Assembly: GCA_030765065.1 (NCBI GenBank)
Contig: CM060977.1
Location: 158,358,052-158,422,051 of the forward strand
Reading direction: 5' to 3'
Length of the DNA: 64,000 bases
From: Deroplatys truncata
Lineage: Eukaryota; Arthropoda; Insecta; Mantodea; Mantidae
The stretch's first letter is position 1. Each line of letters begins with the position of its first letter. Positions 579-64,000 of the stretch are shown here, in pieces. A program made the position numbers and the translations under genes. A model generated the notes under the pieces. It saw only the letters and a program-made list of their open reading frames with translations. It was not told the origin of the DNA and did no database searches.

Positions 579-1027
579 CCTGATTATTTACATTCATATG
601 ACTTTCTCTACCCTCTATCGCTTACTAGTGGGTATACAAATTATTCTTAGGAAAGTTTATTTTCCTATCGACTTCATTTTATCCAGATGAATACATTACA
701 CATTTCTTCATAGACACAGAGGGAATGGCAATAGTCAAATGTTTTAGAACTGGAGTTATACGCTGGGCTTAAAATTCCATGCTGTTTGCATGCCATCGCA
801 AGAAACAAAAAAATGTACAGAACTTTAAAAGAATGCCTAGGTATTAAACAATTCGAACCATTAATAACGAATATCTCGGAAATGGCTGAACACCACAAAA
901 AAGTTGTTGAAATAAATTGTGTTTTTTAAAGGTTATAAAAACTTGCTTCCGATTGAAGTGGACTTCACAGGCTATTCCCAGAAAATTCAAAACATGCATT
1001 TTATTTCTCATGTAAATATCTTTAATA

Positions 1028-2230
1028 TAGAGTCTTTCAACAAGAGTGTCCTATCTTTAACATGTGATAGCTGCCGTTGTTATTGAGTTACAGTAGTCAT
1101 TTTTTTTCATGTGATTACAGTTGTTGTTGACAAACAGCCATGGAACGTTACAGCATTCAGCAAAGCGTAGAAATTGTGAACATTTATTATCAAATTGGAT
1201 CATCTGTTCGCCAAACCTTCCGTGTATTGCGTGAAGTTTACGGTGTGCATAATCGTCCCTGCGAGAGAACGTTTCGGCGTTTGATCGATAAATTTGAAAG
1301 AAGTGCTTCTGTCAGCGACCAAAGAATCCTGTACGTAATCGACGTAAGCACTCCAACGAAAACATAGGCACCGTTCGTGAGAGTGTACGCGAGAACGGAA
1401 ACACATCAATTGCTCGTCGAGCGCAAGAATGGTGTTAACTCAAGAACTAAAGCCCAACGACCATAGGTTGTGCCGTGTGTTCGCTGACTTGGCTATGGAG
1501 CAATTGGAAGCTGACCCGGATTTTTGTCGAAAAATCATCTTCAGCGACGAAGCCCACTTTTGAATGTGTTAACAAACAAAATTGCCGCTTTGGAGCAATC
1601 ACAATCCAATGCAGATGCAAGAACGACCACTTCATCCCCAAAAGGTTACTGTGTGGTGTGGATTTTGGTATGGTGGAATCATTGGTCCATATTTTTTCCA
1701 AGATGAAGATGGAGAAGCTCTAACTGTCAATGGAGAAAGATAGCGGACTCTTATAAGGGACTATTTTTGGGCTTAATTGGATGGTATGGATCTCAGCAAG
1801 ATGGTGCCACATGTCATACTGCTCTCGAAACAATCTATCTTTTGAAGGAGTAGTTCAGAGGTTTCATCATTTTCCGTGGTGGTGATGTTAACTGGCCCCG
1901 AGGTCATGTGATTTAACGTTGGATTACTTCTTGTGGGGTTATGTTAAATCTCGAGTTTATGTCAACAAGCCAGAAACACTAAATGATCTTATGAATAACA
2001 TCACGCGTGTTATTCGTGAAGTTGGACCTAATTTACGTTTTTCTGTCATTGAAAATTGGGTCAACCGTATATGCGCAACCCAACAAAGTCGCGGCGGTCA
2101 CTTAGCTGATGTTCTCTTCCACACGTAATGACATTAATTATGTTCCAAAATAAAAAACGAAACCTCCATCATTTATGGAACGTGTTTCATTTAAGTTCAA
2201 AGATAGGACACTCTTGTTGAAAGACCCTAT
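1028..2230 (+). mobile_element. DD41D Tc1/mariner-like element, family 1 copy 1
   Basis: The ends are inverted repeats of about 30 bp: the left reads TAGAGTCTTTCAACAAGAGT and the right, on the opposite strand, TAGGGTCTTTCAACAAGAGT. TA dinucleotides flank it at 1026-1027 and 2231-2232, the usual Tc1/mariner target duplication. It shares its ends and body with the copy at 10852-12137 but is 83 bp shorter because of an internal deletion near 1429. It lies inside an HLR repeat. Confidence 0.85.
1140..2128 (+). pseudogene. Broken transposase of DD41D family 1, copy 1
   Basis: The start is MERYSIQQSVEI at 1140. The N-terminal helix-turn-helix region of about 65 residues is intact, ending around KFERSASVSDQR. 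A small deletion near 1325 shifts the frame, and about 83 bp are missing near 1429, removing the second part of the DNA-binding domain. The first catalytic motif FSDEAHF is followed at once by a stop near 1561. The second, QQDGATCHTA, and the third, DLTLDYFLWG, remain in other frames; the third has lost one codon compared with copy 2. The C-terminus ends GGHLADVLFHT at 2128. In life such proteins bind the terminal repeats and cut and paste the element. This copy cannot be active. Confidence 0.85.
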
Positions 2231-2413
2231 ATATGCTGTTTTAATAAAAATCGTTAGAGCTATCGTTAAAAAATAAAACATTTCGAAAAATGTTCCTAAA
2301 CAGGGTAATTTGGAGTGGGAGAATTTTCTTGAAAATCATCGCATCTTTGGAAGATACGAAACCTAAATAACAAGTTTGGTATTTATCCTACTTTTCGTTT
2401 TTTAGTTATGCCG

Positions 2414-2415
<2 letters not shown>

Positions 2416-2449
<34 letters not shown>
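2416..2449. repeat. (CA)n microsatellite inside HLR copy 1
   Basis: Uninterrupted CA dinucleotides at the position where all HLR copies carry a short CA tract. Confidence 0.95.
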
Positions 2450-2451
<2 letters not shown>

Positions 2452-2582
2452 GACATTTTTATAAAAACGCTTTTTTATTATTGGGCCTGAAAATGTGTGT
2501 TTTCAGTGAAACTTCGGAACGAATTTTTGGGTGGAATGCCTTAGCTTGTCTGTCTACTCTGTACGAGTAGTAGATAAAATAA

Positions 2583-3406
2583 AAATGTAAGTCACAGCTC
2601 TTGAAGGTTAATGCAGGAGACAAATAACTTATCCAGGAAACCAAAACTTCGGGAAGGGTCCCAGAGGATACACCTTTCGTTCTTAGGCTACTGAACCAAT
2701 TTGTTTATAGTCTTACGGTCGTGAAAACTGGAGCCGTCTTTATTTGCAGCAAACGTTTCGTGAGACCGACTTTGAGTACCTTCGCTAAATTTAGAATGAG
2801 AAGTGCCTTGGTGAATCATTTACGGCTATAGTGAAATATACTTATAAATCCTTCTTCACAAGTAAGAAGAACGAGAAGTGCCAAAAGGGACAAGCAAGCA
2901 AGGTGCTCGTTGCGGATGGCCTGTACATACTAGTCGACCAATACACAGTTCTCAAACAGGATCTATCGCGTCGGGGCGATGTTCGATCAACAGCTCTGAC
3001 TTGTGTGTTTGCTTTAGCTAAAGTATATTTGTACAATGGAGGAATCCGGGAACAGCGTTAATGCAATGGGCCCACCGTGACTCCAGTCTATATTCTTATA
3101 CTCTCCATGTATTTGTAGTAGCTTAAAGATTCACCAACCAGGAATCTTAGCCTTAAACGTAAGCTTCTTCAGATAATACTTTTGTTTAAACCAGCTGTCC
3201 CCAGTTTGGAGGCAACTTAAGCGGAACTAAAGAAGCATAGGATCTGTTTAATGCAGAAATAATAATAATTATTATTTGTAGGAACTTCTGTGTTACGGCC
3301 AGTCTATACCTCCATGTGAAGCTGCACTCTCCATTCTCCTTTCCGCTGCATCTTTTAACTCTACATAGCTTCTCTCCTTCTTGATGTCATCTAGTATCTT
3401 AACTCT
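2583..3406. other. Unassigned sequence
   Basis: A 76-codon frame at 2831-3061 has no recognisable domain and its antisense is equally open, so I do not call a gene. A short ATT-rich run lies near 3260. Confidence 0.35.
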
Positions 3407-3418
3407 TCTTCTACCCAG

Positions 3419-3713
3419 AAAATTAAATTGAGTTTTATTTATGGACGCTCTTTAACTGTTGTGGTCCTTAGCGTCCCATTCTATATTGGGCGTGAAAGAA
3501 CGGTAATTTTGCTCAGAGGCCTCTTTATCAGGCTTGATGTTCTTTTATGCGCCGTAAATCTACGACACGGGACCAGCGGCTTTACTTCCCCTCCGAAGGA
3601 AGCCATGCTAAGGATTTTTACGCCCGAAAAATCCATCACCCTCCGCCGGGTTTGAACCCGCGACCTTGGGAACTACAGGCTAGCACGGTAACCACTACAC
3701 CACGGAGGACGAC
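3419..3713 (-). mobile_element. SINE-A copy 1, complete
   Basis: tRNA-derived SINE, read right to left. The head at about 3640-3713 carries RNA polymerase III box A (TGGTGTAGTGG) and box B (GGTTCAAACCC). The body has the family's palindromic stretch around TTCGGAAGG, and the tail ends in AAT-rich sequence at 3419. A perfect 12-bp target duplication, TCTTCTACCCAG, flanks it at 3407-3418 and 3714-3725. SINEs encode no protein and depend on a LINE reverse transcriptase; none is visible here. Confidence 0.9.
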
Positions 3714-3725
3714 TCTTCTACCCAG

Positions 3726-5930
3726 TCTTCTATGAAGGGACAGTTAAACATTGAAGGCTTCTTGATATATTGTTATTTTTATGCATTAGTATTTAAATTC
3801 TTGGGTCTGAAATACATACTATAGCTTTCCTTAAAATAAACTACTATGAATTTTAAATTTTTTACGTTTATCCTAAATTATTTCCAAACATGGTTCTGTG
3901 AAAAACTTTTGTAATAACCGAGGGCGGCGTGGCAGTTACAGAGCTTACTAGGGGCACCAGCTGGTAGAGTTTTGACACCACAGAGCCATGACGTTCCCTC
4001 AATAAATAGTTTTATAGCTCAAATTTCATATTGATATCTATTTATTTAAAACGTCCTTCGGGTTCTTCCTCGAGTATAGATCTGCAGGTAAAAGGAGGGA
4101 TGCAGTAGAGGTCTGCATAAATTCTTAGTTTTTGCCCGGCCCGGACCGGATTGTCTGATATTGTTTTAAAGAAAGTTATGTTACAGTTGTTGACTATTAT
4201 TATTATCGGTCTAAAAGCGCTGCAGGCCCTGATGTTCCAAAATAAGAACAGAAATCAGAGAGAATTTTCGGTAATTTTCCAAACCAATAGGCGAAGGGCA
4301 TTGGATACAGGTTGTATATTCCGCAAATAATATGTGTGTCTCCCGTGACTTAGTTGCAGAAACCAAAATCACGTGACAGATAAGGAACGGTGTGAGATTT
4401 TGCATATGGCTGAATCGTATAGACACGTAAAACCACTCATCATTCCGGGGTCCTCAGGTTCGGACATGTAATCCCGGTACCCGCTAGAACAAAAGTTTAC
4501 AAAGAAGAGCTCGTGAGTGAGGATATATTTTGTGTTGGTGGATCTTAAGGGAGAGGAGTACGTGAGGGAGTTGAAACCTTCTGTAAATAATGTGTAGCCA
4601 GAGAAGGAATCTTCCTTTGTCATAACATCGGAGACACTACGACCCGAGATATCTGAAAGGTTATTGCTCCCTCCGATCAAAATGAACACCTTAATTCACC
4701 CATACAATTCCTTCTCTCTCCCTCTCCTCCCTCTCATGTACAGATCCCGTCGCAGATTCCTGTATTGTGAATGAATCACATGTATTTCATATCTGGATTT
4801 TTCACTGCCTAAAATCCCTGACTACTTTTATAGTTTAGTATTTGGTGAATCCTGGTCCAGTTTATGAAGTATTCCTCACCCCTAAAGTGTATGCTACAGC
4901 AGTAGAAGGAAATGAAGTTATGAAGTGTGAGTTTGAACTGCCACTTCACAATTTATAGGAAATACGCGTTTATTTTGAACGACTCATTCACTAGCTATCC
5001 ATCACCAAGGGGATATTTCCCAAGGTACGGAGTTTAATATAAGTATGTTCATCGAAAGATATATCTAGACCCTGGGAATACTAAGGACTACCCTTACGCA
5101 AAGCTATCATAGCGTACTTTTTCCCTATTTAATCACTTTTTTTTTTTAAGTTTCTTGTGCTTGTCTGTTTATGATCAACCCTCAAGCTCCTAAACTGTAA
5201 TGATCAGGTTGGATACCAGCTCCATTTGCCATAATAACTTCCGTTTTCTGCAATCCTGTCGCTTTAACGTTGGTATTGGATCAATGCCGCTCTAAAGTAT
5301 GACCTTCACAGAAAACAATAAACGCAGCAGGGTGTCGATCTCAGTTCTTCTGCCAGTGGACAGGTTTCACCGGATGTACAGTCTACTGAGAGAATTATAA
5401 CCATATTGTCTCGCCTCAACATAGATAACGTAAATAATTATGCCTTACTGACGGATAATCGAAGCAGAATACACTTTGCTTCCATAATGGTGTTGCTGTA
5501 ACTCATTTGGACAGTCGGGTTTTTGCTACATGACTTTTTAAAGCTACGTTTTCAAAGAATAACGTATTCCTGTTTCACGGAAAAGTGCTTATGTACTTCC
5601 GGGAGGAACTATATTGTGCGTTCTAACTTCTGTCCCATTTGTGTTGGGTTTTCATAAAATATGTAATATTTATCATATGTTTTAGGAACTCCAGGCGTCG
5701 CTCCAGATATAGCATTAATGTGTTACCAATAGAGACCAAAGCCGAGATAATAATAATACGATTGAAGGTATGCGTCCGCTTTGCTCTCATCGAGATTCCC
5801 CCTGCTCTTTTTTCTTTCTTTCGTTCTAGTACCTTGTGCTTTGCTTAAGATTTAAGCTTGTGGTGTGCGACCTTCAGGGTACGCGTGCACTTGTAGGCAT
5901 CGGGCGACTTATGCATCACAGTTAATTACT
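3726..5930. other. Unassigned sequence with one unrecognised 106-codon frame
   Basis: The longest frame, 4369-4689 on the minus strand, begins MFILIGGSNNLSD. It matches no family I know and has no supporting context such as splice structure or homologous neighbours. The rest is AT-rich with no recognised repeat. Confidence 0.3.
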
Positions 5931-6125
5931 TACGTAACTGCATAGGAATGTGAGCTTTTTTCAGAACGAGTAGGTAAGATGTTTACATGAGTCTTGAAAA
6001 AAAATCACTTTCCTGCAGTTACGTACAATATTTTGTTTCATACTAGGTATGTCGAAATATTTTATATATTGGTTAAATGTTATACTGCATATTATTTTGG
6101 ACATGAACGCTGTCATATGTTTCAG
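5931..6125. repeat. Repeat V copy 1 with a hairpin of about 95 bp
   Basis: The arms ACGTAACTGCATAGG (from about 5932) and its imperfect complement CCTGCAGTTACGT (to about 6027) form a foldback. The following 95 bp, around ATATTGGTTAAATGTTATAC, recurs inverted near 13650-13740 next to another hairpin of the same kind. It looks like a small foldback element or part of a larger dispersed repeat. Confidence 0.55.
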
Positions 6126-6263
6126 TTAAGTTGTTGATTAAACAGTTGAACGAAATACAAAAACGGATTGCGGAAAGGAGGTGTACGGAAAAGTGTACTG
6201 ATTTGGAGACGGAAAAATGAAATTCCGGAAACTATGAAACAAAAATGTTTTTCGACGATAGTG

Positions 6264-6271
<8 letters not shown>

Positions 6272-6319
<48 letters not shown>
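6272..6319. repeat. (TTA)n microsatellite
   Basis: About 15 uninterrupted ATT/TTA units after a T-run. Frames crossing it give poly-Ile, poly-Tyr or poly-Asn and are not genes. Confidence 0.95.
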
Positions 6320-6527
6320 CGTTATCCTCCACTCGCATTCATGGTGTCCTGGTCGAAAATTGAATTTCATGTATTCAGTGCTGGTAACCTAAATTACCTG
6401 TGTGTTTTGCTCATTCTACTGCACGTATGTGTATGAACTATATTAGATTCTATTGCAAACTTGGAATATAATCATATTTGATAGTTGAATTTTACCATTT
6501 TAATCTTACCTGAGCTTTTACTTCATT

Positions 6528-7371
6528 TTTAGTTCTCTACTATGTATAGTAAGCAGGGGAAGTATTGCATTCCAACCAAAAATTCGATACCGAGATTTCA
6601 CCGGTAATACATGTTTTGAGGCCCCCTGAATCCACGAAAGCATTTTTCACAAAAGGTCCGTATGTGTCTGTGAACAGCATAACTCAAAAACGAAAAGTGG
6701 GATAAACCAAACGTGATATTTAGGTTCAGTATCTTTCAAAGATGCGACACGAAGATTTTCGAGAAAGTCCCCCCACCTCAGACTACCCTTTACATTGAGT
6801 ATTTTTTCGAAAATTTTAATTTCCTCATATATTTAAGACATTTTCATGACACATGAAATGTATATCTTGAATTTTCTGGGAATGTCCCCAAAAGTCCTCT
6901 TCATTCTGAATGGCTTTTGCATAACTGGCAAACCGTAAGGAATAGACATTTTTCTATACAAAAAATGCAGATCACATTAAAACACGAGGTAATTTATGTA
7001 ATATATAATAATAAATGTATATGACAATTTATGTCACACACTTTTTTTTGTCAAGTGAACCATTTCCGAGATATTCCTTGTTGTTTGTTTGAATTTTCCA
7101 ATACTTATACCTTTTCTCAAATGGGAATTCCTTATTCTTTTTGTCCTGGTAATGCAAAGAGAATGGAATGCTCCACATAGCAACCAGCTCTTAAAAGATT
7201 TGACTACCGCTTAAAGACTACCATATTCCCCTTGTACCTACAAGAAAATTAGTAATAAGATAGTTTCTGCAAATGTTCATTTCGATTAACATGAAGCAGA
7301 TGGAGAATAAAGTTTGTAAAAATAGCTTGTACAGGAGTAGGGAAAGTCATGTGAGTGTAAACATCAGATTT
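6528..7371 (-). repeat. HLR element copy 2
   Basis: Read right to left it starts near 7371 with the family's CTGATGTttACACTCACATGAC-type terminus and ends at 6528 with the CTACTATGTATAGTAAG hairpin. It has no expanded CA tract. Non-coding. Confidence 0.8.
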
Positions 7372-7514
7372 TTATTTGTTAATATTAACTTACAATTTAA
7401 TTCATGCAGCAGCTAAATATGAGCTGCAATTTGTTAATTTAAGGTCAACAAGGCGACTGCCTCCGAGGTCGAGTGATCGCCGAGCTAACTGGTATGTAAA
7501 GGAACAAATGAATG

Positions 7515-8325
7515 GAGAAATTAAAATTGAGTTTTATTCATGGACGCTCTTCAACTACTATGGTCCTTAGGGTCCCATTCTATGATGTGACGTATGCAGA
7601 GATTGTCGCGCATACGTCTCTCTGGTCACCTAGATTCGAGATGGCGGTTAAAGCTTGGGTGGGGGATTAGCAGTTTTAGGTGGGGGTAGTTGGGTTAGCG
7701 TCCCCCACGCTTTAGGAAGCGTTGCTTGGGGCAGAGTGAGTCAGTGCGTCGCAGTCAACCAGTACAGACGCGTAGTCGCCCTCTCCGTGCAGGAATGCAT
7801 GGCGGCCTCGCCCGACAGGCATGGAACTAAGACTGTGGGGTAAAGTATTCAGTTTTATCTAATAAACTCTCTGTCATCTATATCCTTATTGTCTTATTTA
7901 TGATAGTGTAAATTCCTTCTTCCTATTTTGAGCCATGTAAGTGTCCTTTTGCCAGTATTTAGTAATATTTCTGCCCTTTCACTTTAGCTGCGTCCCTAGT
8001 CGTAGCCTCGCCATTTTACAACTTGTTAATTTTCTGGTACCTCTAAGCGAGTCGCCCACCTACCAATGAGCATTTGATAAGAGGCTACGACAATATTGTG
8101 CGTGAAAGACGGTAATTTTGCTGAGAGGCCTCTTTATTAGGCTTGAGGTTCTTTTACGTGACGTAAATCTACGACACGGGACCACCGGCTTTGCTTCCCT
8201 TCCAAAGGAAGCCATGCTAAGGATTTTTACACCCGAAAAAAATCCATCGCCATCCGCCGAGTTTGAATCCGCGACCTCGGGAACTAGAGGCTAGCATGGT
8301 AACCACTACACCACAGAGGACGACG
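7515..8325 (-). mobile_element. SINE-A copy 2, split by an LTR-like insert
   Basis: Head with box A and box B at about 8250-8325 and tail at 7515-7582. The two parts (8093-8325 and 7515-7582) are separated by an insert at 7583-8092. An 8-bp target duplication AATGAATG flanks the whole at 7507-7514 and 8326-8333, so the SINE landed first. Confidence 0.85.
7583..8092. mobile_element. Candidate solo LTR inside SINE-A copy 2
   Basis: The insert begins TGATGTGACG and ends TACGACA, so it has the TG...CA ends of a retroviral-type LTR. It is GC-richer than its surroundings. It has a polyadenylation signal AATAAA near 7861, as expected at an R/U5 boundary, and an early hairpin, GACGTATGC with GCATACGTC. 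No primer-binding site or gag/pol follows, so it would be a solo LTR. A 4-6 bp target duplication is not clear, which keeps confidence moderate. Confidence 0.5.
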
Positions 8326-8800: not shown

Positions 8801-8920
8801 ATTTAAACCTATTTCTTCCAATGTTTATCTTTATCACAGCAAGGAGATAGAAAAGCAAGCTCTTGTACGAATAAACTTAACATTTTATGAAAATAAATAA
8901 TATTGGGTAGAGAAAGTCGT

Positions 8921-8956
<36 letters not shown>

Positions 8957-8962
8957 CACAAC
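8801..8962 (-). repeat. HLR 5'-end fragment with (GT)n
   Basis: GTAGAGAAAGTCGTG near 8908 matches the family's 5' terminus read on the minus strand, followed by a GT microsatellite at 8919-8954. It abuts the 3' end of the next HLR copy, a head-to-tail arrangement. Confidence 0.5.
8919..8954. repeat. (GT)n microsatellite
   Basis: GT dinucleotide run with one early interruption. Confidence 0.95.
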
Positions 8963-9778
8963 AGAGTTTTACTTTCTCCACTACGTGTATTAAGTAGGGG
9001 AAGTATTGTATTCCACCCAAAAATTCGATACCGAGATTTCACCGGAAATATATGTTTTGAGAGCCCCTGAACCCAAAAAAGGCTTTTTTGGAAACATGTC
9101 CGTGTGTGTGTCGGATAAACACCAAACTTGGTATTTAGGTTCAGTATCTTCCAGAGATCCGACACGAACGTTTTCAAGAAAATCCCCCACCCCAGATTAC
9201 CCTATACATGGAACATTTTTCGAAAATTTTAATTTTCTCAAAAATGGCTCTAACGATGTTGATTAAAATATCATATGTTTAAGATACTTTTATGACAAAT
9301 AAAATGTATATCTTGAATTTTTTGGGAATGTCTCCAAAAGCATTCTTCATTGTGAACGACTTTTGCATAACTGGTAAACCATAAGAGATAAACAAAATTT
9401 TACTGCACAGAAAATGCAGATCGCGTTAAAATACACAAATTATGTCATATGCTTTTTTTGTTGAGTGAACTATTTTCGAGATATTGCTTGTTATTCCCTT
9501 AAATTTTCCAATACTTTTTCTCAAATGGGAATTCGTTATCAATTTTTGTTGTCCTGGTAATGCAAAGAGAAGGAATACTCCACATAGCAACCAGCTCTTA
9601 AAATATTTGACTATCGCTTAAAGTCTACCAATTCCCCTTGCACCTACAAGAAAATTAGCAATAAGATTAACATCTCGATATCTCGATTAACATGAAGCAT
9701 ATGGAGAATAAGCGTTTGTAAAAATAGTTTGTACAAGAGTAGAGAAAGTCATGTGAGTGTAACACATCAGATTTTTAT
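8963..9778 (-). repeat. HLR element copy 3 (subfamily A)
   Basis: Full-length-type copy: hairpin end ACTTTCTCCACTACG at 8967 and 5' terminus CTGATGTG, read on the minus strand, near 9770. The 122-codon minus-strand frame through it, rich in Thr-His, is repeat read-through. Confidence 0.85.
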
Positions 9779-12137: not shown

Positions 12138-12380
12138 TATATTGGGCGTGAAAGACCGGTAATTTTGCTCAGAGGCCTCTTTATCAAGCTTGAGGTGCCT
12201 TTATATGCCATAAATCTACGACACGGGACCACCGGCTTTACTTCCCTTCCGATGAAAGGCATGCTAAGGATCTTCGCCCGAAAATATCCACCGACCTCCG
12301 CCGGATCTGAACCCGCGACCTCGGGAACTAGAGACTAGCATGGTAACCGCTACACCACAGAGGACGACGTCACGGCTTCA

Positions 12381-15065: not shown

Positions 15066-15066
15066 A

Positions 15067-15671: not shown

Positions 15672-15672
15672 T

Positions 15673-15798
15673 ATTACTTTCTCTACTACGTATAGTAAGG
15701 GAAGTATTGCATTCCACGCAAAAATTCGATACCGAGATTTCACCAGAAATACATGTTTTGACGTGCACTGAATCCTTATAAAGCATTTTTTGGAAACA

Positions 15799-15860
<62 letters not shown>

Positions 15861-17015: not shown

Positions 17016-17039
17016 AATCAGACGACTGAAAAATTCAGT

Positions 17040-17111
17040 GCCATAGCCGGGATTTGAACCACGGATCTCTCGGTCTCCGTCCGGTTGTTCTAACCACTGA
17101 GCTACCATGGC
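17040..17111 (-). repeat. tRNA-like sequence, left arm
   Basis: 72 nt starting GCCATGGTAGCTCAGTGGTT and ending GGCTATGGC. The acceptor stem is intact (7 pairs, one wobble), box A (TAGCTCAGTGG) and box B (GGTTCAAATCC) are perfect. The D stem has one mismatch, the T stem has only 3 of 5 pairs and the anticodon stem about 3 of 5. The position 34-36 triplet is GGA, but there is no serine-type long variable arm. Best read as a SINE head or tRNA pseudogene. Confidence 0.6.
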
Positions 17112-17242: not shown

Positions 17243-17273
17243 ATTGAATTTTTCAGTCGTCTGATTGTACCTT

Positions 17274-53012: not shown

Positions 53013-53802
53013 TTAGTTAGTAAATGTAACTATTTTGGTAAAGTAAAATCGATTTTTAGAAGCTTCTGTTTAAAATTGTGTTTCATCTTTATAGTGTTTA
53101 TATAATGAAATATTCTCCCTGGTAAAATAAGCTCATTGGTGTCGCACCTCCTCTCTCAGAGATTATAGTTATAGAGAGTAAACTATCGGTAGAAATGCAT
53201 ACTTTAATCTGCTGCTGAACAGGAAAACAGACAACTGTAGGAAGAATAGCCTGAGCTGGAGAAAGGGAACAAGCTTCTTATAATGCAAAATATATAGAGT
53301 GCATGTTTACATGTGTGTTATGATCTTACTGTCTCCATACAAAAAGTACTGGGAGACAAACATGAGACAACAGCGATAATAAAAGCTGTGCGATGGGTTC
53401 TTATGAAGGAATTTCTGAAACAGGTGTCACTGATCGAGTTGCGCAGTGGGCAGGAGGAAAGGCATGCGGAGGGTCCTCGACCCCACGCACGCACGCATGC
53501 ATGCATGGGATGCTGGGTACAGAACTACAAAGGTGGGCGACATTGCCATCGGGAAATAAATATTCAACATGGTGTTGTTGCTTCCCACGCAAGACTCGAC
53601 ATTCCATCCCCCTAGCTCTGTGACCACCTAGACATACATGTCTCTTAAGAAACGGTCATCAATCAGCTGCATGCCATCTCTTGGATATATTCATATTAAA
53701 TCGAAGAGGAAGAAGATTTCTTCCTTAAAACAGTCGAGTGGTTAGCAGCCATATTTACTATAAAGTAATAAAATAAATAAACAAAACCTTATGTTACATG
53801 CA
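53013..53802. other. Unassigned sequence
   Basis: Several overlapping frames on both strands at 53313-53627 are rich in His/Arg because of a CACG/CATG run near 53484-53508. No domain recognised. Confidence 0.3.
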
Positions 53803-53805
53803 CAT

Positions 53806-54608
53806 GACTTTCTCTACTACCTATAGTAAGAAGGGGATGTATTGTATTCCACCCAAAAATTCGATACCGAGATTTCACCGGAAATACATGTTTTGATGCC
53901 CACTGAATAAAAAAAAAGCATTTTTGGAAACATGTCCGTGTATGTGTCTGTGACAGTGGGATAAACACCAAATTTGGTAATTAGGTTCAGTATCTTCCAG
54001 AGATACGAAGCGAAGGTTTTCAAGAAAATCCCGCCACCACAGATTACCCTTTACATGGAACAATTTTCGAAAATTTTAATTTTCTCAAAAATGGCTCTTA
54101 ACGAATTTGATTAAAATATCATATGTTTAAGATAATTCATGAGAAATGAAATGTATATCTTGAATTTTCTGGGAATGTCTCCAAAAGTATTCTTCATTGT
54201 AAACGACTTTTGCATAACTGGTAAGATAGACAAAATTTTACTGCACAAAAAATGTAGATCGCGTTAAAATACACAATTTATGTCATAAACATTTTTGTTG
54301 TTGAGCGAACCATTTTCGAGATATTGCTTGTTATTCCCTTAAATTTTCCAATATTTATACTTTTTCTCAAATTCGTTATTCAGTTTTTTTTTTGTCCTGG
54401 TAATACAAAGAGAATGGAATGCGCCAAATAGCAACCAGCTCTTAAAATATTTGACTATCGCTTAAAGCCTACCAATTCCCCTTGCATCTACAAGAAAATT
54501 AGCAATAAGATTAACATCTTGATTAACATGAAGCATATGGAGAATAAGCGTTTGTAAAAATAGTTTGTACAAGAGTAGAGAAAGTCATGTGAGTGTAACA
54601 CATCAGAT
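53806..54608 (-). repeat. HLR element copy 18 (subfamily A)
   Basis: Hairpin end CTCTACTACCTATAGTAAG at 53813, 5' terminus GTGTAACACATCAGATTTTT near 54594. A small deletion near 54220. Followed head to tail by a subfamily B copy. Confidence 0.9.
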
Positions 54609-54648
54609 TTTTTTTATATAGTAACTCCAAACTATTATTACGCAAGCT

Positions 54649-55509
54649 TATTACTTTCTCTACCACGTACATAGCACGTAGAGAAGGTATTACATTGCAC
54701 CCAAAAATTCGATACCGAGATTTCACCGGAAATACATGTTTTGAGGCACCTGAATAAAAGAAAGGTTCACGTCTGTGTGTGCGCGTGTGTCTGTGAATAG
54801 CATAACTCAAAAACGAAAAGTTGGATAAACAACAAACTTGGTATTTAGGTTCATTACCTTCTAAAAATGTGACACGAAGATTTTTCAAGAAAATCCCCCC
54901 TCCTCAAACTACGCTTTACATGGAACTTTTTTCAAAATATTTTATTTTCTAAAAAAAGGCTAACGATTTTGATTAAAACACCTATATTAAAGATATTTAC
55001 ATGACAAACAAAATGTAAATCTTGAATTTTCTGGGAATATCCTTTGAAGTCCTCTTCATTCGGAAGGAATTTTGTATAATCTTGTAAAACTAGTAAACGT
55101 TAAGCGCTATACGAAAACGTACTCCACAGAAAATGTAGATCTCTTTAAAACACAATTTATTCCAAATAACGTTTTATGTGGCATCAGCCATTATCGAGAT
55201 ATCCGTTTTTAATGTTCCGAATTGTTCATTACTTCATTCTTTCAAGTCTTGTCAACATTCAATTGTTTCTCCCGATGTCATGGAAACGGTGTGGAATTTT
55301 AAGGGCAGCATATACCGTCCAGTTCTTAAACATTTGACTATCGCTATTCCCTTTGTATCTATAACGAAATGTGTAATATAGTTATTTCTGCAAAGGTTTA
55401 CTTGGATCAAAATGAAGTAGATAGAAAAATAAGCTTTAGTAAGAATAGTTTATATACCACTAATAAAGATAGAGGGTAGAGAAAGTCATGTGAATGTATC
55501 ACATCAGAT
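54649..55509 (-). repeat. HLR element copy 19 (subfamily B)
   Basis: Hairpin end CTCTACCACGTACATAGCACG at 54657 and 5' terminus AATGTATCACATCAGAT at 55493. The subfamily B middle includes TAAACGTTAAGCGCTATACG. Confidence 0.88.
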
Positions 55510-55525
55510 ATTTGTTTTTATCAAT

Positions 55526-55959
55526 TTCATGTCAATTTCACTACACATTTCGTCATGGGTACAAGGGGATAGAGGAAACCAAATCGGTAGCTAGGTATTT
55601 TAAAGCAGCTTGTTATATGCTGGCATTTAAATTCCGTATTCTCTTTTCATGACATCGCGAGAAACAAGTGAATAGCGACTGATAAAGTAATGCAAAATTC
55701 AAAACAATTTTAAGGGCTATTTTGGAAATGGCTGGTGTTAAAAAAACAGTTATTTGAAATAAATTGTATATTTTGAAGACATTTATATGTTTTTGTCTAT
55801 CTCTTATGATTTACCCGTATAGCTATACAAAACTGCTTCCGATAAAGAGAGCTTCTCAAGCTATTTCCAGAAAATTCAAGACATAACTTTAATTTGTCAT
55901 GCAAATATCATAAATATATGGCACTTTAATCAAAATCGTTAAGAGCCACTTTTGAAAAA

Positions 55960-56000
<41 letters not shown>

Positions 56001-56205
56001 GAAAATGCTCTATGTAAAGGGTAGTTTCAAGTGGGGGATTTTCTTGAAATAAAATCTTTGTGTCACATCTTTGAAAGATACTGAACTTAAATACCGTGCT
56101 CGATAGTTATAGAACATTTCATTTTTGAGTTATGCTGTTCACACATACGCGAACCTTTTTCTAAAAATCCCTTCTTTTAATTCAGGTGCCTTAAAGCAGT
56201 AACCT
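55526..56205 (+). repeat. HLR element copy 20 (subfamily B), 5'-truncated
   Basis: Body from CACTACACATTTCGTCATGG to AATTCAGGTGCCTTAAA. A pure A-run of 36 bp at 55962-55997 replaces the family's short A-run before the TTCCATGTAAAGGG segment. Confidence 0.75.
55962..55997. repeat. Poly-A run in HLR copy 20
   Basis: 36 consecutive A. It expands an A-run that is short in other copies. Confidence 0.9.
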
Positions 56206-56246
56206 TATTATCCCCAGTTTGATTTATGGAACAATGTTATTTATGA

Positions 56247-56380
56247 AAGTTGCGTTATCGTTATGAATGTTGCGTTATCGTTATGAATGTTGCGTTATCG
56301 TTATGAAAGTTGCGTTATCGTTATAAATGTTGCGTTATCGTTATAAATGTTGCGTTATCGTTATAAATGTTGCGTTATCG
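56247..56380. repeat. 20-bp tandem repeat, 7 units
   Basis: The unit is ATGTTGCGTTATCGTTATGA. The invariant TGCGTTATCG recurs exactly every 20 bp from 56251 to 56380. The first three full units end TATGA and later ones TATAA, so the array grew in at least two steps. A CAT repeat follows at 56382-56398. Confidence 0.95.
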
Positions 56381-56502: not shown

Positions 56503-57393
56503 GATTAAAATTAGTGCACTGCAAGTTTTAAATTGTGTATAAATGCTATATAAGCAGAAAAAATGTATAAGAATAATAGTGATATAGTTTAGAAGTTAAT
56601 TTTAAAAATATATTTGATCCGTATTCTTGTTTGAACAACCTGAAAAGAAAGTTAAGAAAACTATTTTTGAAGCAGATCTTACAAAACTGTGGCATTAACT
56701 CTTTTGATTCCTCAGATTATACAAAATTCATTGCGAATGAAGACACTTCACAGCTTATGACACGTCACAAGGACAAGAACAATAGTAACTCAACGCGAAA
56801 AAGTGAAAACTGACCTGCCTCATCTCTAGTTTGGGACATAAATTAAATTGAGTTTTCTTTATGGACGCTCTTTAACTACCGCGGTCCTTAGCGTCCCATT
56901 CTTTATTGGGCGTGAAAGACCGATAATTTTGCTCAGAGGTCTCTTTATCAGACTTGACGTTCTTTTACGTGTCGTAAATCTACGACACAGGACCGCTGGC
57001 TTTACTTCCCTTCCAAAGTAAACCATGCTAAGGATTTTTACGCCCGAAAAAATCTATCGCCCTCCGCCAGGTTTGAACCCGCGACCTCGGGAACTAGAGG
57101 CTAGCATGGTAAGTTTGGGACATGCTATTCATAACTGCAATGATATCTGTTTCCTCACAATAGCCGCCCCTCCACCCACTACAACCTTTACCAGACTAAC
57201 CATTAAATAGGAATGATTCTTTTTTCCAAAAAATGCTAGTAAAGGATTCACAAAGTTACACCTATTTCTCAGTTGAAAAGTAAAAGTTCTGGTGTTTGAA
57301 ATGTCAATATAAAACTCTTTATAGGTATACTCAATGTAAATGCAATAAAATAAAGAGCAAAAGGCAAGAAGATGACAAACTAATTACCTAAAG

Positions 57394-57428: not shown

Positions 57429-57430
<2 letters not shown>

Positions 57431-58239
57431 GATGTGTTACACTCACATGACTTTCTCTATTCTTGTACAAATTATTTTTACAAACGCTTATTCTCCATAT
57501 GCGTCATGTTAATCGAGATATCGAGATGTTAATCTCATTGCTAATTTTCCTGTAGATGCAAGGGGAATTGGTAGGCTTTAAGCTATAGTCAAATATTTTA
57601 AGAGCTGGTTACTATGTGCAGTATTCCATTCTTTTTGTATTACCAGGACAAAAAAAAATGAATAACGAATTCCCATTTGAGAAAAAGTATAAGTATTGGA
57701 AAATTTAAGGGAACAAGCAATATTGTCGTATACCTCACATATTTATTATTTAACTTCAGAGGAGAGCAACTCGCTTATGAGAGGGATCGTTGAACAGACA
57801 AAGAACTTTAAACTCGAGGCATCGACAAGGGACGCAGCTAAAGTTAGATTCACAAAATAATTACACCAACATAATTTCTGGTTTAAGGGAGAGGCAAGGA
57901 ACTCTATTTTACCATAATTAAAAGCTGCAAAAGAGTGGATAACTAGTAGATTTATTATAACAATTTCTTACCCCATGTGTCTGCCGGGCGAGGACGCCAT
58001 ATCTCAGGCAGTTATCCGTCCAACTCACGCGGAGCCTAGTCACAGAATGCTAAGAAGCCCACGCTAAGGCTTAGCGTCAGTAACGCCATATCCCCCCCAA
58101 TGACACACTGCTTCCCCTGAATCGCCCCTACTCTCAGATAAACTGCCACCTCCGACCCGGTAACCAGAGGGCGTATTACCATTAATATAATCTGTGCACA
58201 TGCCACAATATCTCGAAAATGGTTCACTACTAAAAAAAA
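57429..58239 (+). repeat. HLR element copy 21 (subfamily A), split by a solo LTR
   Basis: Parts at 57429-57723 and 58206-58239. After GGTTCACTACTAAAAAAAA it is interrupted by another HLR starting TCTGATG at 58240. Confidence 0.85.
57724..58205. mobile_element. Solo LTR of a retrotransposon
   Basis: 482 bp starting TGTCGTATACC and ending CACATGCCA (TG...CA). A perfect 6-bp target duplication CAATAT lies at 57718-57723 and 58206-58211, and the HLR sequence rejoins exactly when the insert is removed. A single LTR without internal region implies recombination between two LTRs. The clade is not decidable from the LTR alone. Confidence 0.82.
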
Positions 58240-58471
58240 TCTGATGTGTTACGCTCACATGACTTTCTCTACTCTTGTACAAACTATTTTTACAAACGCT
58301 TATTCTCCATATGCTTCATGTTAATGGAGATATCGAGATGTCAACCTTATTGATAATTTTCTTGTAGATCCAAGGGGAATATGGTAAGTTTTAAGCGATA
58401 GTCAAATATTTTAACGCTGGTTGCTATGTGGCGCATTCCATTCTCTTTGCATGTCCAGGACATAAAAAAAA
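58240..58471 (+). repeat. HLR copy 22, 5' part of a resident element
   Basis: TCTGATGTGTTACGCTCACA to GTCCAGGACATAAAAAAAA. Its continuation (TGAATAACGAATTTGAG) is found at 59371 after an inserted full copy. Confidence 0.85.
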
Positions 58472-59370
58472 TCTGATGTGTTACACTCACATGACTTTCT
58501 CTACTCTTGTACAATCTAATTTTACAAACGCCTATTCTCCATATGTTTCATGTTAATCGAGATATCGAGATGTCAATCTTATTGGTAATTTTCTTGTAGA
58601 TGCAAGGGGAATATGGTAGCTTTTAAGCCATAGTCAAATATTTTAACCCTGGTTGCTATGTGGCGCATTCCATTCTCTTTGCATGTCCAGGACATAAAAA
58701 AAATGAATAACGAATTTGAGAAAAAGTATAAGTATTGGAAAATTTATGGAAATAACAAGCAATATCTCGAAAACGGTTCACTCAACAAAAGAAATGTATA
58801 TGACATAAGTTGTGTATTTTAATGCGATCTACATTTTTTGTGTAGTAAAATTTTGTCTATCTCTTATGGTTTACCAGTTATGCAAAAGTCGTTCACAATG
58901 AAGAATACTTTTGGAGACATTCCCAGAAAATTCGAGATATACATTTCATTTCTCATGACATTATCTTAAACATATGATATTTTCATCAAAATCGTTAGAG
59001 CCATTTTTGAGAAAATTAAAATTTTCGAAAAATCTTCCATGTAAAGGGAAGTCTGGGATGGAGGGATTTTCTTGAAAACCTTCGTGTCGCATCTCTAGAA
59101 GATACTGAACCTAAATACCAAGTTTGGTGTTTATCCGACTGTTCGTTTTTGAGTTATGCTGTTCACAGACACACACACACACACACACACAGACACACAC
59201 ACACAGACACACACACACACACAGACACACACACGGACATGTTTCCAAAAATGCTTTTTTTGGATTCAGGAGGTCTCAAAACATGTATTTCCGGTGAAAT
59301 CTCGGTATCGAATTTTTGGGTGGAATGCAATACTTCCCCTACTTACTACACGTAGTAGAGAAAGTAAAAA
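58472..59370 (+). repeat. HLR copy 23, full length, inserted into copy 22
   Basis: TCTGATGTGTTACACTCACA at 58472 through a CA/CAGACA tract at 59167-59233 to the hairpin CTACTTACTACACGTAGTAG and GAGAAAGTAAAAA. It lies in the A-run of copy 22 without visible duplication beyond A. Confidence 0.88.
59167..59233. repeat. (CA)n/(CAGACA) microsatellite in HLR copy 23
   Basis: CA dinucleotides broken by regularly placed CAGACA. The frames crossing it give Thr-His repeats. Confidence 0.9.
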
Positions 59371-59988
59371 TGAATAACGAATTTGAGAAAAAGTATAAGC
59401 ATTGGAAAATTTAAGGGAATAACAAGCAATATCTCGCAAACGGTTCACTCAACAAAAGAAATGTATATGACATAAATTGTGTATTTTAATGCGATCTACA
59501 TTTTTCATGTAGTAAAATTTTGTCTATCTCTTATGGTTTACCAGTTATGCAAAAGTCGTTCATAATGAAGAATACTTTTGGAGACATTCCCAGCAAATTC
59601 GAGATATACATTTTATTTGTCATGACAATATCTTAAACATATGATATTTTAATCAAAATCGTTAGAGCCGTTTTTGAGAAAATTAAAATTTTCGAAAAAT
59701 GTTCCATGTAAAGGGTAATCTGGGGTGGGGGGATTTTCTTGAAAACCTTCGTGTCGCATCTCTGAAAGATACTGAACCTAAATACCAAGTTTGGTGTTTA
59801 TCCGACTGTTCGTTTTTGAGTTATGCTGTTCACAGACACACAGACAGACACACACACGGACATGTTTCCAAAAATGCTTTTTTTGGATTCAGGGGGCCTC
59901 AAAACATATATTTCCGGTGAAATCTCGGTATCGAATTTTTGGGTGGAATACAATACTTCCCCTACTTTACGTAGTAGAGAAAGTAAAA
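59371..59988 (+). repeat. HLR copy 22, 3' part of the resident element
   Basis: Starts TGAATAACGAATTTGAGAAA and ends with the hairpin and GTAGAGAAAGTAAAA. Confidence 0.85.
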
Positions 59989-60013: not shown

Positions 60014-60245
60014 TCTGATGTGTTACACTCACATGACTTTCTCTACTCTTGTACAATCTAATTTTACAAACGCTTATTCTCCATATGGTTCATGTTAATC
60101 GAGATATCGAGATGTCAATCTTATTGGTAATTTTCTTGTAGATGCAAGGGAAATATGGTAGCTTTTAAGCGATAGTCAAATATTTTAACGCTGGTTGCTA
60201 TGTGGCGCATTCCATTCTCTTTGCATGTCCAGGACATAAAAAAAT
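60014..60245 (+). repeat. HLR copy 24, 5' part
   Basis: Near-identical to 58240-58471 and broken at the same A-run. Confidence 0.85.
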
Positions 60246-61150
60246 CTGATGTGTTACACTCACATGACTTTCTCTACTCTTGTACAATCTAATTTTACAA
60301 ACGCTTATTCTCCATATGGTTCATGTTAATCGAGATATCGAGATGTCAATCTTATTGGTAATTTTCTTGTAGATGCAAGGGAAATATGCTAGCTTTTAAA
60401 CGATAGTCAAATATTTTAACGCTGGTTGCTATGTGGCGCATTCCATTCTCTTTGCATGTCCAGGACATAAAAAAATGAATAACGAATGTGAGAAAAAGTA
60501 TAAGTATTGTAAAATTTAAGGAAATAACAAGCAATATCTCGAAAACGGTTCACTCAACAAAAGAAACGTATATGACATAAGTTGTGTATTTTTACGCGAT
60601 CTACATTTTTTGTGTAGTAATATTTTGACCATCTCTTATGGTTTACCAGTTATGCAAAAGTCGTTCACAATGAAGAATACTTTTGGAGACATTCCCAGAA
60701 ATTTCGAGATATACATTTCATTTCTCATGACATTATCTTAAACATATGATATTTTCATCAAAATCGTTAGAGCCATTTTTGAGAAAATTAAAATTTTCGA
60801 AAAATCTTCCATGTAAAGGGTAGTCTGGGGTAGGGGGATTTTCTTGAAAACCTTCGTGTCGCATCTCTGGAAGATACTGAACCTAAATACCAAGTTTGGT
60901 GCTTATCCGACTGTTCGTTTTGAGTTATGCTGTTCACAGACACACACACACACAGACACACACACAGACACACACACACACACAGACACACACACACACA
61001 CACAGACACACACACGGACATGTTTCCAAAAATGCTTTTTTTGGATTCAGGAGGTCTCAAAACATGTATTTCCGGTGAAATCTCGGTATCGAATTTTTGG
61101 GTGGAATGCAATACTTCCCCTACTTACTATACGTAGTAGAGAAAGTAAAA
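60246..61150 (+). repeat. HLR copy 25, full length
   Basis: Near-identical to copy 23, with a longer CA/CAGACA tract at 60939-61015. The pair copy 24 + copy 25 duplicates copy 22 (5' part) + copy 23, so a segment of about 1.1 kb or more was duplicated in tandem. No 3' remainder of copy 24 follows. Confidence 0.88.
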
Positions 61151-61170
61151 ATAAAATTTTGGTGTATTTA

Positions 61171-61774
61171 ATTTATTAAAATTAGTGTACAGAAACTTAT
61201 AAAGTAATTTATATATAGATACAACGGCTGTACAAGTAGAAAAAGTAGGTATAAGAATAATTATGAGATGATTTAAAAATTAATTAAAATATATTTGTTA
61301 TATATTCTTATTTGAAGAATCTGACAGGAACATTAAGAAAGTTGTTTTTGGAGCAGGTCTTACAAAACTGTGGCATTAACATTATTGAGTTCTCAGTTTA
61401 TACAACATTCATTAGGAAGAAGAGGACTTCACAGACTGTGACGCGATACAAGGATAAGGACAATAGGAACCTGTCTGTACGCACTCATTAACGCGAAAAA
61501 GGGAAAACTGACGTGTCTTACCCCTAGTTTGGGATATGAATTCATAATGCTCCACTGACAATAGCCACCCCTATACCCTTTGCAGAGTAATCATTAAATG
61601 CATTTTTTTCTAAGAATGCGAGTAAATAATTACAAAGTTACTCATATTTCTTAGTTGAATAGTGATATTTCTGAAGTTTGAAAAGTTATCGTTATGTAAA
61701 ATTGCAACAATGTAATACTGTTAATATTTGTAAATGTATGAAGATGCGCAAGGCAAGAAAATGACAAAATAATG
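61171..61774. repeat. Repeat U, copy 2 (empty SINE site)
   Basis: Sister of 56503-57395 without the SINE. CCTAGTTTGGGATATGAATT at about 61526 is the unoccupied target. Confidence 0.7.
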
Positions 61775-62349
61775 AGAAAGTCGAGATAAAAAAGGCCTAA
61801 GAATAGAAAATGGCATAAAATTACCCAACAAATTTATACCCGTGATAGGATTTATGCACGCGTTAGCAACAATTAAAAGATGACAGAATCCGGACCTGGT
61901 TATAAGGAATCGTCGCAAACATATTGAAGATACTCATTCTCATGTGCTGGCTGGACCAAAAGCTTTTAAGAATTCTGACAGTAGTAACATTGTTGCGGAC
62001 CGGATCTCGTTTCACGCTCGCATCAATAACACGACCTATTTGTGTGCCTGGCAGTTAGCGGTGCCGGGAAGTGTACACCAGATGCCAAACACTGACGTCA
62101 TTTCACACTTTCCTTGCTTCTCCCGTGAGACTACTGCATCAATAAAGGGTTTGTGTACTGACAGTTGGACGTCAACTCCATCTGGAGCGGTTTTTAAATG
62201 CACGATTGAGATGTTCTCTCAGAAAATAAAACTGCTTGTAGGACATTTCACCATAACGAATGGGTTGACACAGGTTATTTACGAACTAAACAAGTAGTTC
62301 CATTTGCGTGTTATTCGAGTGAGCCCTCTGCTTTTTTCACAAGAAGAAA
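61775..62349. other. Unassigned sequence with a 117-codon frame
   Basis: The plus-strand frame 61944-62297 (MLAGPKAFKNSDSSNIVADR...) sits in a GC-richer patch. The DNA also has LTR-like features: TGTTGCGGACC near 61993 and AATAAAGGGT near 62142. I found no matching CA end or duplication, so gene or LTR cannot be decided. Confidence 0.3.
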
Positions 62350-62450
62350 GTCTGATGTAGTACTAGATATAATTACGCGACTTTCTCTACCTATTTTCAA
62401 ACAGTTTTTTACCATTCTACCAATTATTCATACAATAGCTTGTTGTTTCT
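62350..62450 (+). repeat. HLR 5'-end fragment
   Basis: GTCTGATGTAGTACTAGATA then GACTTTCTCTACC. Diverges after about 100 bp. Confidence 0.5.
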
Positions 62451-62655
62451 ATTTACTTTCAAGAAGTTGTTTATCTTTACGTTATTAGCCCCACGTTTAA
62501 ATGCCAATTTGAAGAAGTATTTAGATTTTTAAGGAGGAGTTTTATTGTTACGTTATTTGCACCACGGTTTGGGCGTCAATTTGAAAGAGTTGTATTATAA
62601 CTCCACTGTTGGGGAGCCAAACTTGATGAAGTAACTGCCCCACGTATGGTACAAA

Positions 62656-63409
62656 GTTTCCGGTGGCCTTCGTCCCAACGTTTAGGAATCAGTATTAATT
62701 TGTAGAAGCATGTATCTCTTAGCAGGGGGTGATGCGGCTAAAAAATGTAGGTTTACACAAATTATAACTTTTTACTTCACTCCATTTATTAATCCTTCAC
62801 ACGATTAAATAACGCTTCACTGATATAGAGAGCTGTGAGATTATTTATTAATTGCACTTTTAAACACGTAAACTTTATAATATTCTCGCCGTAATGAATT
62901 TTCGTCTCACACTGAATGCGTACTGAGCGAATGAACAGCTCAGGTACGCTGCCGTCTATCGACTGCCGTTTACCGCTTAAATTTGTAAATTGTTCTATTT
63001 CAAGTCTCTGATTGGCTAATCCTACTCCAATAGAATACTTTTATTTAACTTAAAGTTTTTCTAGTTGTTGATTTGCTATTTATAAACTGTTTGAAATATT
63101 ACATTATTATTACTCCTCCAAGAATTAGTAGCAGCATTATTACTTAAACTTTCCAATTCATTACTGCATCAAGGCTACCTCATTGTTAGCAACTTTCGGC
63201 CTCTATTCTTACAGCTTCTACATTATTAAATTACTTAATACATTCACATAACACTATTATACATTACATAATAAAAATAAACATAATACAACGACTGTTA
63301 CATACATTTTATATATTATATTATACACATATTGCTTTAAGGCGGGCTGTTATTTTTATATATTATATAATTAGACTGAAATCATTTAAATGTTAAAAAT
63401 ACTGCCTCA
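62656..63409 (+). repeat. Repeat family T, copy 3
   Basis: Same order of landmarks as copies 1 and 2 and the same right edge AAAAATACTGCCTCA at 63409. A gap of some tens of bases near its left side removes the segment after CAGTATTAATTTGTA. Confidence 0.8.
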
Positions 63410-63584
63410 AATTCTATCCACTAGAAATTATACATAATGTACTAAGTTCGCGGTAGAATTCAGGAAACTAAACTTTTAGTCAACTGTTTTCCATATGTTT
63501 GCACTGTTATGCCTATTCTATGTATTAGCTCAGGAGAAATAAAAGAAAGGTGAAGCAAACACTACAGAAAACTCAAAACAACAA

Positions 63585-64000
63585 CTATGAAAAACTGTTT
63601 CACAAAATTTATATTTTAGTGATATCCATATTTTTCCTGTATATATCTCATGGTTTCTAAACTACTTAGAATGACGATGACTTCACAGGCAGTGACAGAA
63701 AATTCAAGATAAACATTTTATTCGCCATCGACATTACATCTCAAACTACCCTGTTTTTATCAAAATCGTTAGAGCCATTTTGGAGAAAACCAAAACTAAC
63801 AAATACTTTAAATGTAAAGAGTTGATTGGGGTGAAGGCATTTCATAAAAGTCTTCGCCTTTCTTTCTTGAAAGATGCTGGACTTAAATGACTTAAGTTTG
63901 TCACGCGCACGCACAACCACGCGGGCCTTTTGCTAAAGGAACCCACAAAAACGTGTATTTCCGATGATACCTCGCTATTGAATTTTTGGTTGGAATACAA
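63585..64000 (+). repeat. HLR element copy 27 (subfamily B), runs off the window
   Basis: Contains CTCATGGTTTCTAAAC, the AATCGTTAGAGCCATTTTGG segment and GTGTATTTCCGATGATACC. The hairpin end would lie just beyond 64000. Confidence 0.75.

Follow-up and report, generated by a model that had tools for sequence, protein, structure and literature searches.

A self-nesting family of probable non-autonomous Helentrons and its candidate autonomous partner in the mantis Deroplatys truncata

Introduction

The non-autonomous relatives of Helentrons, known as HINE or DINE-1 elements, share a published layout consisting of a 5' subterminal inverted repeat (subTIR), a nested inverted repeat, a microsatellite, a 3' subTIR and a palindrome (PMC4067079; PMC7492417). 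An endonuclease fused to Rep/helicase is a mark of Helentrons (PMC4067079), and an OTU domain reportedly accompanies many of them (PMC5148889). The reported insertion site of Helitron2 elements lies between TTTT and a T or C. For FoHeli, a Helitron2 of Fusarium oxysporum, self-insertion was proposed to lead to elements with several 5' termini and one 3' terminus; the description includes a single nested case and short duplications at the 5' side, and an endonuclease is lacking (PMC5148889).

Here, we describe a family of this kind in a stretch of 64,000 nucleotides (the window) from the mantis Deroplatys truncata (GenBank assembly GCA_030765065.1, contig CM060977.1, positions 158,358,052 to 158,422,051 of the forward strand). 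The window belongs to an assembly of 4.29 Gb in 818 contigs. Judged from sequence comparison, the family with its two subfamilies A and B very probably consists of non-autonomous Helentrons (HINE/DINE-1) that are mobilised in trans by a Helentron of the same genome and that nest in each other at an internal T-run.

Composition and layout of the family

Two copies from the window served as queries, namely A (positions 60245–61153, minus strand) and B (from 54648, plus strand). Disregarding matches shorter than 30 nt and matches to the microsatellite, the A query gave 38 and the B query 36 matches, which were merged by eye to approximately 30 copies and fragments, in agreement with the count of at least 26 in the original prediction. 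With the microsatellite masked, A and B cover 23.3% of the window, and a control with reversed queries gave 0. The motif ACTTTCTCTACT occurs exactly 18 times when both strands are counted, and TCTGATGTG 8 times exactly and 25 times with at most one mismatch. Scans with fuzzy tip patterns found 18 5'-type and 24 3'-type tips compared to 1.95 and 0.85 per Markov-shuffled window (20 shuffles), a few of these matches being due to chance or to cross-matches between 5' and 3' tips. Motif counts, query matches and tip scans thus bear out a dominant repeat family that is present in both orientations. Over its length, B is about 66% identical to A.

The A query is a full copy and was used as the reference. 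It consists of a 5' module (M5, 61153 down to 60476), an internal T7 run (60469–60475, minus strand, i.e. A7 on the plus strand), which is the landing site discussed below, and a 3' module (M3, 60468 down to 60245). Its 5' tip (61101–61146, minus strand) comprises the subTIR ACTTTCTCTACT and the inverted repeat AGTAGGGGAAGT; its 3' tip (60245–60280, minus strand) comprises the subTIR AGTAGAGAAAGT, the hairpin ATGTG/CACAT, CAGA and a T-run. From 5' to 3', an element reads T-run (T5), subTIR ACTTTCTCTACT, a 10-nt spacer, inverted repeat AGTAGGGGAAGT, GT microsatellite and core, followed by subTIR AGTAGAGAAAGT, short hairpin ATGTG...CACAT, CAGA and T-run. The original prediction had oriented the element the other way round: the TCTGATGTG taken for an end represents the 3' hairpin end as read on the opposite strand, and the supposed 3' hairpin CTACTTACTATACGTAGTAG is the 5' subTIR together with its inverted repeat. 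The direction of the partner gene introduced below agrees with the corrected orientation.

This layout corresponds to that of a HINE in several respects. A copies carry the subterminal inverted repeats ACTTTCTCTACT and AGTAGAGAAAGT at their two ends, HINE repeats being about 11–15 bp long, and the 5' subTIR holds one side of a short inverted repeat (ACTTTCTCTACT-N10-AGTAGGGGAAGT). When folded as DNA, the 5' tip of the A reference has -4.9 kcal/mol and a z-score of -2.25, and that of the B copy at 32916 a z-score of -5.03; both values support the 5' fold. The putative 3' palindrome ATGTG-N7-CACAT ends 4 nt before the T-run and folds weakly, with z-scores of -1.08 (A) and -2.05 (B). In the A copies of the window that were read by eye at both ends, the last subTIR base is a T paired with an A; in the B copies 54653–55508 and 36651–35831 it is a C paired with a G, and the copy with ends at 2580 and 580 is mixed. 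Because this base-pair change is a single difference between two subfamilies, little weight is given to it.

A Helentron with matching ends

The original prediction had stated that no Rep/helicase partner lies in the window. Our analysis agrees: none of the six frames contains a Walker A or a Rep motif 2 pattern; no all-frame profile scan was made. In the assembly as a whole, PF14214 (Helitron_like_N) gave 152 matches, with 150 of 291 candidates scored. One class of matches covers profile positions 8–190 with E-values of about 1e-26; at least 18 of the matches listed lie, as counted by eye, in frames of 2,108–2,543 amino acids. The top-scoring class, with E-values down to 1.5e-54 and mostly with internal stops, is a second, canonical-looking Helitron class of the same genome.

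One member of the long-frame class, at locus L049 (positions 971–8005 of that locus), has a single frame of 2,345 amino acids that combines PF14214 (97.8 bits) with a PIF1 helicase (100 bits) and contains the motifs RGSPHEH and GSAGVGKST. When the last 216 amino acids were scanned alone, they matched the endonuclease profile Exo_endo_phos_2 with 28.5 bits (cut-off 27.4). A search of this endonuclease end against the PDB by means of phmmer gave a single match at chance level (E 0.4). Two further matches of the protein are Herpes_teg_N at the N-terminus and DUF6570 in front of the Rep part. As many Helentrons reportedly carry an OTU domain, the Herpes_teg_N match may represent a protease of this type.

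The Helentron copy of loci L050 and L049 spans approximately 10.5 kb from 5' to 3' end. Its 3' end consists of GTGTAGAGAAAGTTATGTGAATGTAACACATCAGA followed by Ts, and this tip is of the same make as that of the family. Its 5' end is an A-type M5 in all three copies read, with identities of 94.4, 94.7 and 89.9%. Behind this M5, at TTATTCATTTT^ACTTTC, lies older sequence that resembles M5 (82%) and continues into part of the 3' module; in these three copies, the Helentron thus carries an extra A-type 5' module. Among the 40 copies of the 3' end that were scored, out of 255 candidates, identities are 96–100%. The description of the partner draws on one copy for the gene (L049), on three copies for the 5' side and on 40 for the 3' end. 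The autonomous Rep/helicase element between matching termini, for which the original prediction had proposed a genome search, is present as a Helentron whose Rep, PIF1 helicase and endonuclease parts share a single frame; an autonomous relative encoding a DDE transposase or a reverse transcriptase, which the prediction had named as its refutation, is not what was found.

Together with the filled and empty sites and the T-rich flanks described in the next section, this partner with matching termini supports the Helentron/DINE-1-like assignment of the original prediction. Some observations speak against the assignment or against the proposed partnership. The Exo_endo_phos_2 match is weak and was not listed in the scan of the whole L049 protein. 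The 3' hairpin of the family is short and its fold is weak. The identity of M5 between family and partner (89.9–94.7%) is below the >95% reported for other Helentron/HINE pairs (PMC4067079), and the two do not have most of the 3' module in common.

Insertion takes place within T-runs

The five bases preceding 16 5' tips of the window (one fused tip was excluded) are T in 70 of 80 cases, and those following 23 3' tips in 92 of 115 cases, compared to 31% T in the whole window. Filled and empty sites could be compared directly. The uninterrupted internal run is a T7 in 18 of 24 copies; of 13 filled runs, 12 have precisely T5 to the left of the insertion, and 12 have T6–11 to the right. An A copy inserted into a B copy (L020) reads AAGTTTATT / element / T7-CTATC; as empty counterpart, two B copies show AAGCTTATTTTTC, and another B copy shows AAGGTTATTTTTC. 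Similarly, a Helentron copy (L053/L054) occupies the opposite-strand T7 run of an A copy, and its junctions are AATGC-T6 / element / T6-GGATTC. In all of these comparisons only Ts are gained, about four or five. The claim that target duplications are absent holds accordingly: apart from the Ts the pairs contain no duplication, and no duplication of consistent kind was seen.

These features are those of a HINE, which has a T-rich target, leaves it unmodified and shows a variable number of terminal Ts. A canonical Helitron would possess a 5' TC and a 3' CTRR end and would insert between A and T; the ends found here are ACTTTC and CAGA plus T-run, and the targets are T-runs. The family might instead be a set of miniature inverted-repeat transposable elements (MITEs) with terminal inverted repeats and moved by a DDE transposase, which is how DINE-1-like elements were formerly filed. 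The 12-bp inverted repeats near both ends and the mariner-like remnants in the window would fit a MITE family. Such a family would however be expected to show a target duplication of fixed length and a DDE partner; the filled/empty pairs add only Ts, and the matching ends flank a gene for Rep, helicase and endonuclease. A MITE origin can therefore be considered extremely improbable.

Probable preference for the internal T-run

The 5' flanks of 41 young A copies were read. Fourteen of these copies lie in the internal run and 20 are located elsewhere, including two in B copies (L017, L026) and one at another A run (L099). These 41 are the best matches to one copy and hence a sample of the youngest, in which L027 is counted twice. 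Among 40 Helentron 3' ends, 17 lie in the internal run (15 assigned by script; L061 and L066 by eye). The opposite-strand T7 run contains L054 and L085, and further A-type runs contain L057, L080 and L088; three others precede an A 5' end (L079, L083, L090), and one is located in another Helentron (L074). Insertion of a Helentron into a Helentron was seen in L072 and L074; in L072 the site is the host Helentron's own internal T-run. A count of 53 5' tips from the window and the loci gave 14 at A positions 680–684 and 22 with flanks that have no family match.

It could be argued that insertion simply occurs into long T-runs, and that the internal run is hit frequently only because it is a T7–8 run of a very abundant family. 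Other T-runs are indeed used: 4 of the 41 A copies lie in the 3'-end T-run of the family and 3 in the opposite-strand T7 run, next to the 20 located elsewhere, and 14 of the 40 Helentrons lie in sequence with no family match. The background is quite different. In 154 kb (90 kb of random stretches plus the window), only 6 of 176 runs of at least seven Ts are internal runs (2 of 103 if the window is left out), yet 14/41 and 17/40 insertions are found there (Fisher test against 6/176, p = 1.6e-7 for A copies and 6e-10 for Helentrons). The element's opposite-strand T7 run is commoner in this background (13) but received only 5 insertions; the ratio of internal to opposite run is 31:5 for insertions and 6:13 for the background (Fisher p = 1.4e-4). 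A mere affinity for long T-runs is therefore an unlikely explanation. The evidence for a preference for the internal run is weakened by the selection of the A copies, by the fact that the site was mostly deduced from one flank (the 5' flank for A, the 3' flank for 37 of the 40 Helentrons), and by a background count that followed a different, stricter pattern rule.

Nested arrays

Twenty loci chosen from the best M5 matches in the genome were inspected for nests. The order M5 M5 M3 M3 was found in L009, L013, L020 and L024, and L023 reads M5 M5 M5 M5 M3 M3 M3. A script placed 7 of 24 intact elements of the window and the loci between the end of an M5 and the start of an M3. In L009, L013, L018, L020, L023, L028 and the nest of the window, the young reference is more similar to the inner modules than to the outermost ones. 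The sample contains 42 full M5 (mean 0.949) and 46 full M3 (mean 0.927); neighbouring modules form 13 M5 pairs and 12 M3 pairs with identities of 0.90–0.99. For 11 of the 13 M5 pairs and every M3 pair, each member is more closely related to some other module of the sample than to its neighbour; the exceptions are a tie in L024 and the pair 2423/3099 of L027. Since neighbours are closer to modules elsewhere, most pairs are insertions and not tandem duplications; for them, the test does not support the view that the arrays generally arose in tandem.

A tandem origin, in which missed rolling-circle termination or unequal crossing-over at T-runs multiplies modules in place, nevertheless accounts for some details that disagree with nesting. 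The L027 pair 2423/3099 (98.7% identical) is mutually closest, and the M3 modules at 60014 and 60245 of the window are 99.1% alike. The nests of L027 (three M5, one M3) and L018 (two M5, three M3) are unbalanced, and the gradient with older modules on the outside, which is expected of nests, is not seen in L024, L026 and L027. As a general explanation, multiplication in place is improbable: the closest-relative test goes against it even for 60014/60245, the age gradient of the seven nests named above does so as well, and the Helentron, which is a different element, has the same junctions. The head-to-tail look of the family is thus mainly the result of insertion into its own T-runs.

Possible mechanism and comparison with known systems

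For the mobilised family we envisage the following sequence of events. The 5' subTIR with its inverted repeat and the 3' subTIR with hairpin and CAGA would be recognised as ends. Most likely, the Helentron protein would open the 5' end and replicate up to the 3' hairpin. The product would be joined to the T strand behind TTTTT (or TTATT) with no target duplication and would bring along about four or five Ts of its own. As the T7–8 run inside each element would lie in a favourable setting, new copies would preferentially enter older ones at this run, giving rise to nests M5^n M3^m; because joining is to the T strand, both would have the same orientation, hence the head-to-tail look. Since the 5' end available in a nest is an outer one and the 3' end an inner one, a unit that combines several 5' modules with a single 3' end could move as a whole. 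L027 (M5 M5 M5 M3, both flanks with no family match) and the Helentron suggest such composite units, and the present autonomous Helentron, with its extra 5' module, looks like a composite. It is conceivable, with slightly less than even chances, that the internal T-run acts as a self-landing pad which is both functional and conserved and which the Helentron machinery recognises in related elements by more than its length, and that the autonomous Helentron acquired its present 5' end from a non-autonomous copy by this route. If this were true, the family would grow into itself, spare genes, gain landing sites with each insertion and allow elements to swap 5' ends.

With the HINE/DINE-1 elements of PMC4067079, the family shares subTIRs, nested inverted repeat, microsatellite, a putative 3' palindrome, a T-rich target that is not duplicated, and a Rep/helicase/endonuclease partner. 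It differs from these in the internal T-run as main landing site, in nests with up to four 5' modules and in a partner identity below 95%; moreover, its 3' subTIR ends 22 nt before the CAGA end, compared to 38–60 bp in mite HINEs (PMC4067079). Cg_HINE of the Pacific oyster has a similar left flank (5' subTIR, complementary inverted repeat, microsatellite) and right flank (3' subTIR, palindrome), whereas its tandem units are central satellite-like repeats and those found here are the element's own 5' and 3' modules, repeated by self-insertion (PMC7492417). FoHeli is similar with respect to the proposed self-insertion (PMC5148889). In contrast to FoHeli, the insertion point is fixed here (14/41 and 17/40 sampled insertions), and the autonomous element itself is composite-looking. 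The helicase part of the partner matches Helraiser, a canonical Helitron (7lcc, 2.9e-22); unlike in Helraiser, TC/CTRR ends and an A^T target are not seen, and an endonuclease domain is added.

In a literature search that extended to neither subscription papers nor Repbase, only the Fusarium work among the papers listed came close to fixed-site self-insertion. In a full-text search for the end sequences, the papers listed (10 of 11) are unrelated by title and share just an 11-letter term, and exact-pattern scans of viral contigs and genome contigs gave no match. The composite route was already proposed for Fusarium Helitrons (PMC5148889); new are the fixed internal site, the frequency of its use by family and partner, and the genome share reached. 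Fixed-site self-nesting makes the composite mechanism of that study testable, as insertion point, order of events and partner gene can be read in one assembly.

Abundance in the genome

In 40 random stretches with a total of 90 kb, taken from 11 of the large contigs (C16, see below, not among them), A and B cover 18.5% of the sequence with the microsatellite masked (bootstrap 12.0–25.5%). Some A or B sequence is present in 21 of the 40 stretches, and the reversed control again gave 0. For comparison, all Helitrons together make up 5.37% of the Heliconius melpomene genome (PMC4016481) and 7–20% of grasshopper repeatomes (PMC7486953). A single family with an apparently intact driver brings together three topics that are mostly treated apart, namely the target choice of Helentrons, the origin of their arrays and composite ends, and the way in which one rolling-circle family can come to occupy nearly one fifth of a 4.3-Gb genome.

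Contig C16 (707 Mb) stands apart. It represents 16.5% of the assembly, and none of the 81 best A (41) and Helentron (40) matches listed is located on it; if matches were evenly spread, the chance of this would be about 5e-7. In 8 kb sampled from C16 (loci L131–L150), the GC content is 39.3%, compared to 36.1% elsewhere, and an old copy was found in 1 of 20 stretches of 400 bases, compared to 9 of 40 elsewhere. PF14214 matches are present on C16. The contig possibly represents a chromosome of a special kind or is of foreign origin.

Individual copies and other features of the window

The nest of the window lies next to the reference copy on the minus strand. An outer A copy (58240–59988) is split at its own internal T-run into M5 (59988–59368) and M3 (58470–58240), and the run is occupied by an inner A copy (58472–59371). 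A partial A copy (57429–58238, minus) follows, whose pieces 57429–57723 and 58173–58238 have other sequence in between. Behind the reference copy lies an extra 3' module (60014–60244, minus), which differs from the module at 60245 at 2 of 231 positions; both are even more similar to modules located elsewhere. The arrangement may be due to duplication, to read-through beyond the first 3' end or to nesting.

Of the head-to-tail pairs named in the original prediction, 14264/15067 and 53807/54648 are both present; the latter is no tandem. These two copies (A, 53807–54607, plus; B, 54648–55508, plus, at AAGCTTATT^TTT) appear to have inserted independently into an older B copy of opposite orientation (53780–56198, minus), the remains of which are 53780–53806 and 55542–56198, detected by BLAST, and 54616–54647, recognised by eye. 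The full A copy of the other pair (14264–15066, minus) immediately adjoins the T-run that follows the 3' end of a B fragment (15333–15067). Comparably, a B-type fragment (from 8670) has its 3' end directly in front of the full A copy at 8967–9771 (plus); within the 3' hairpin of a B-type end at 8907–8962 (plus), a GT microsatellite has expanded.

Further full A copies are located at 45211–46024 (plus) and 15674–16553 (plus, with a long GT microsatellite), and a diverged full copy at 6525–7368 (plus). Further B copies are found at 35831–36656 (minus; a partial copy, 35782–35455, lies 48 bp downstream), at 32105–32922 (minus, lacking the 3' tip) and at 571–2586 (minus, interrupted between 1059 and 2229). 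Partial copies lie at 24201–24602 (plus, 5' part) and 21033–21614 (plus).

The window also harbours repeats of other kinds. A dispersed repeat of about 212 bp occurs in a single orientation at 3420–3631, 8029–8240, 12076–12287 and 56840–57051, its copies being 68–90% identical to the reference copy. A 20-bp tandem repeat with seven copies and 96% matches occupies 56241–56380. Mariner/Tc1-type transposase-like remnants were recognised at 42466–43392 (minus), 40753–41569 (minus), 1450–1720, 10885–11754 (plus) and 19445–19753 (minus), on the basis of DDE_3 below its cut-off, one HTH domain and otherwise by eye. Two Rfam tRNA matches at the gathering threshold lie close together on opposite strands (17039–17111, minus; 17171–17243, plus) and are perhaps pieces of tRNA-derived short interspersed elements.

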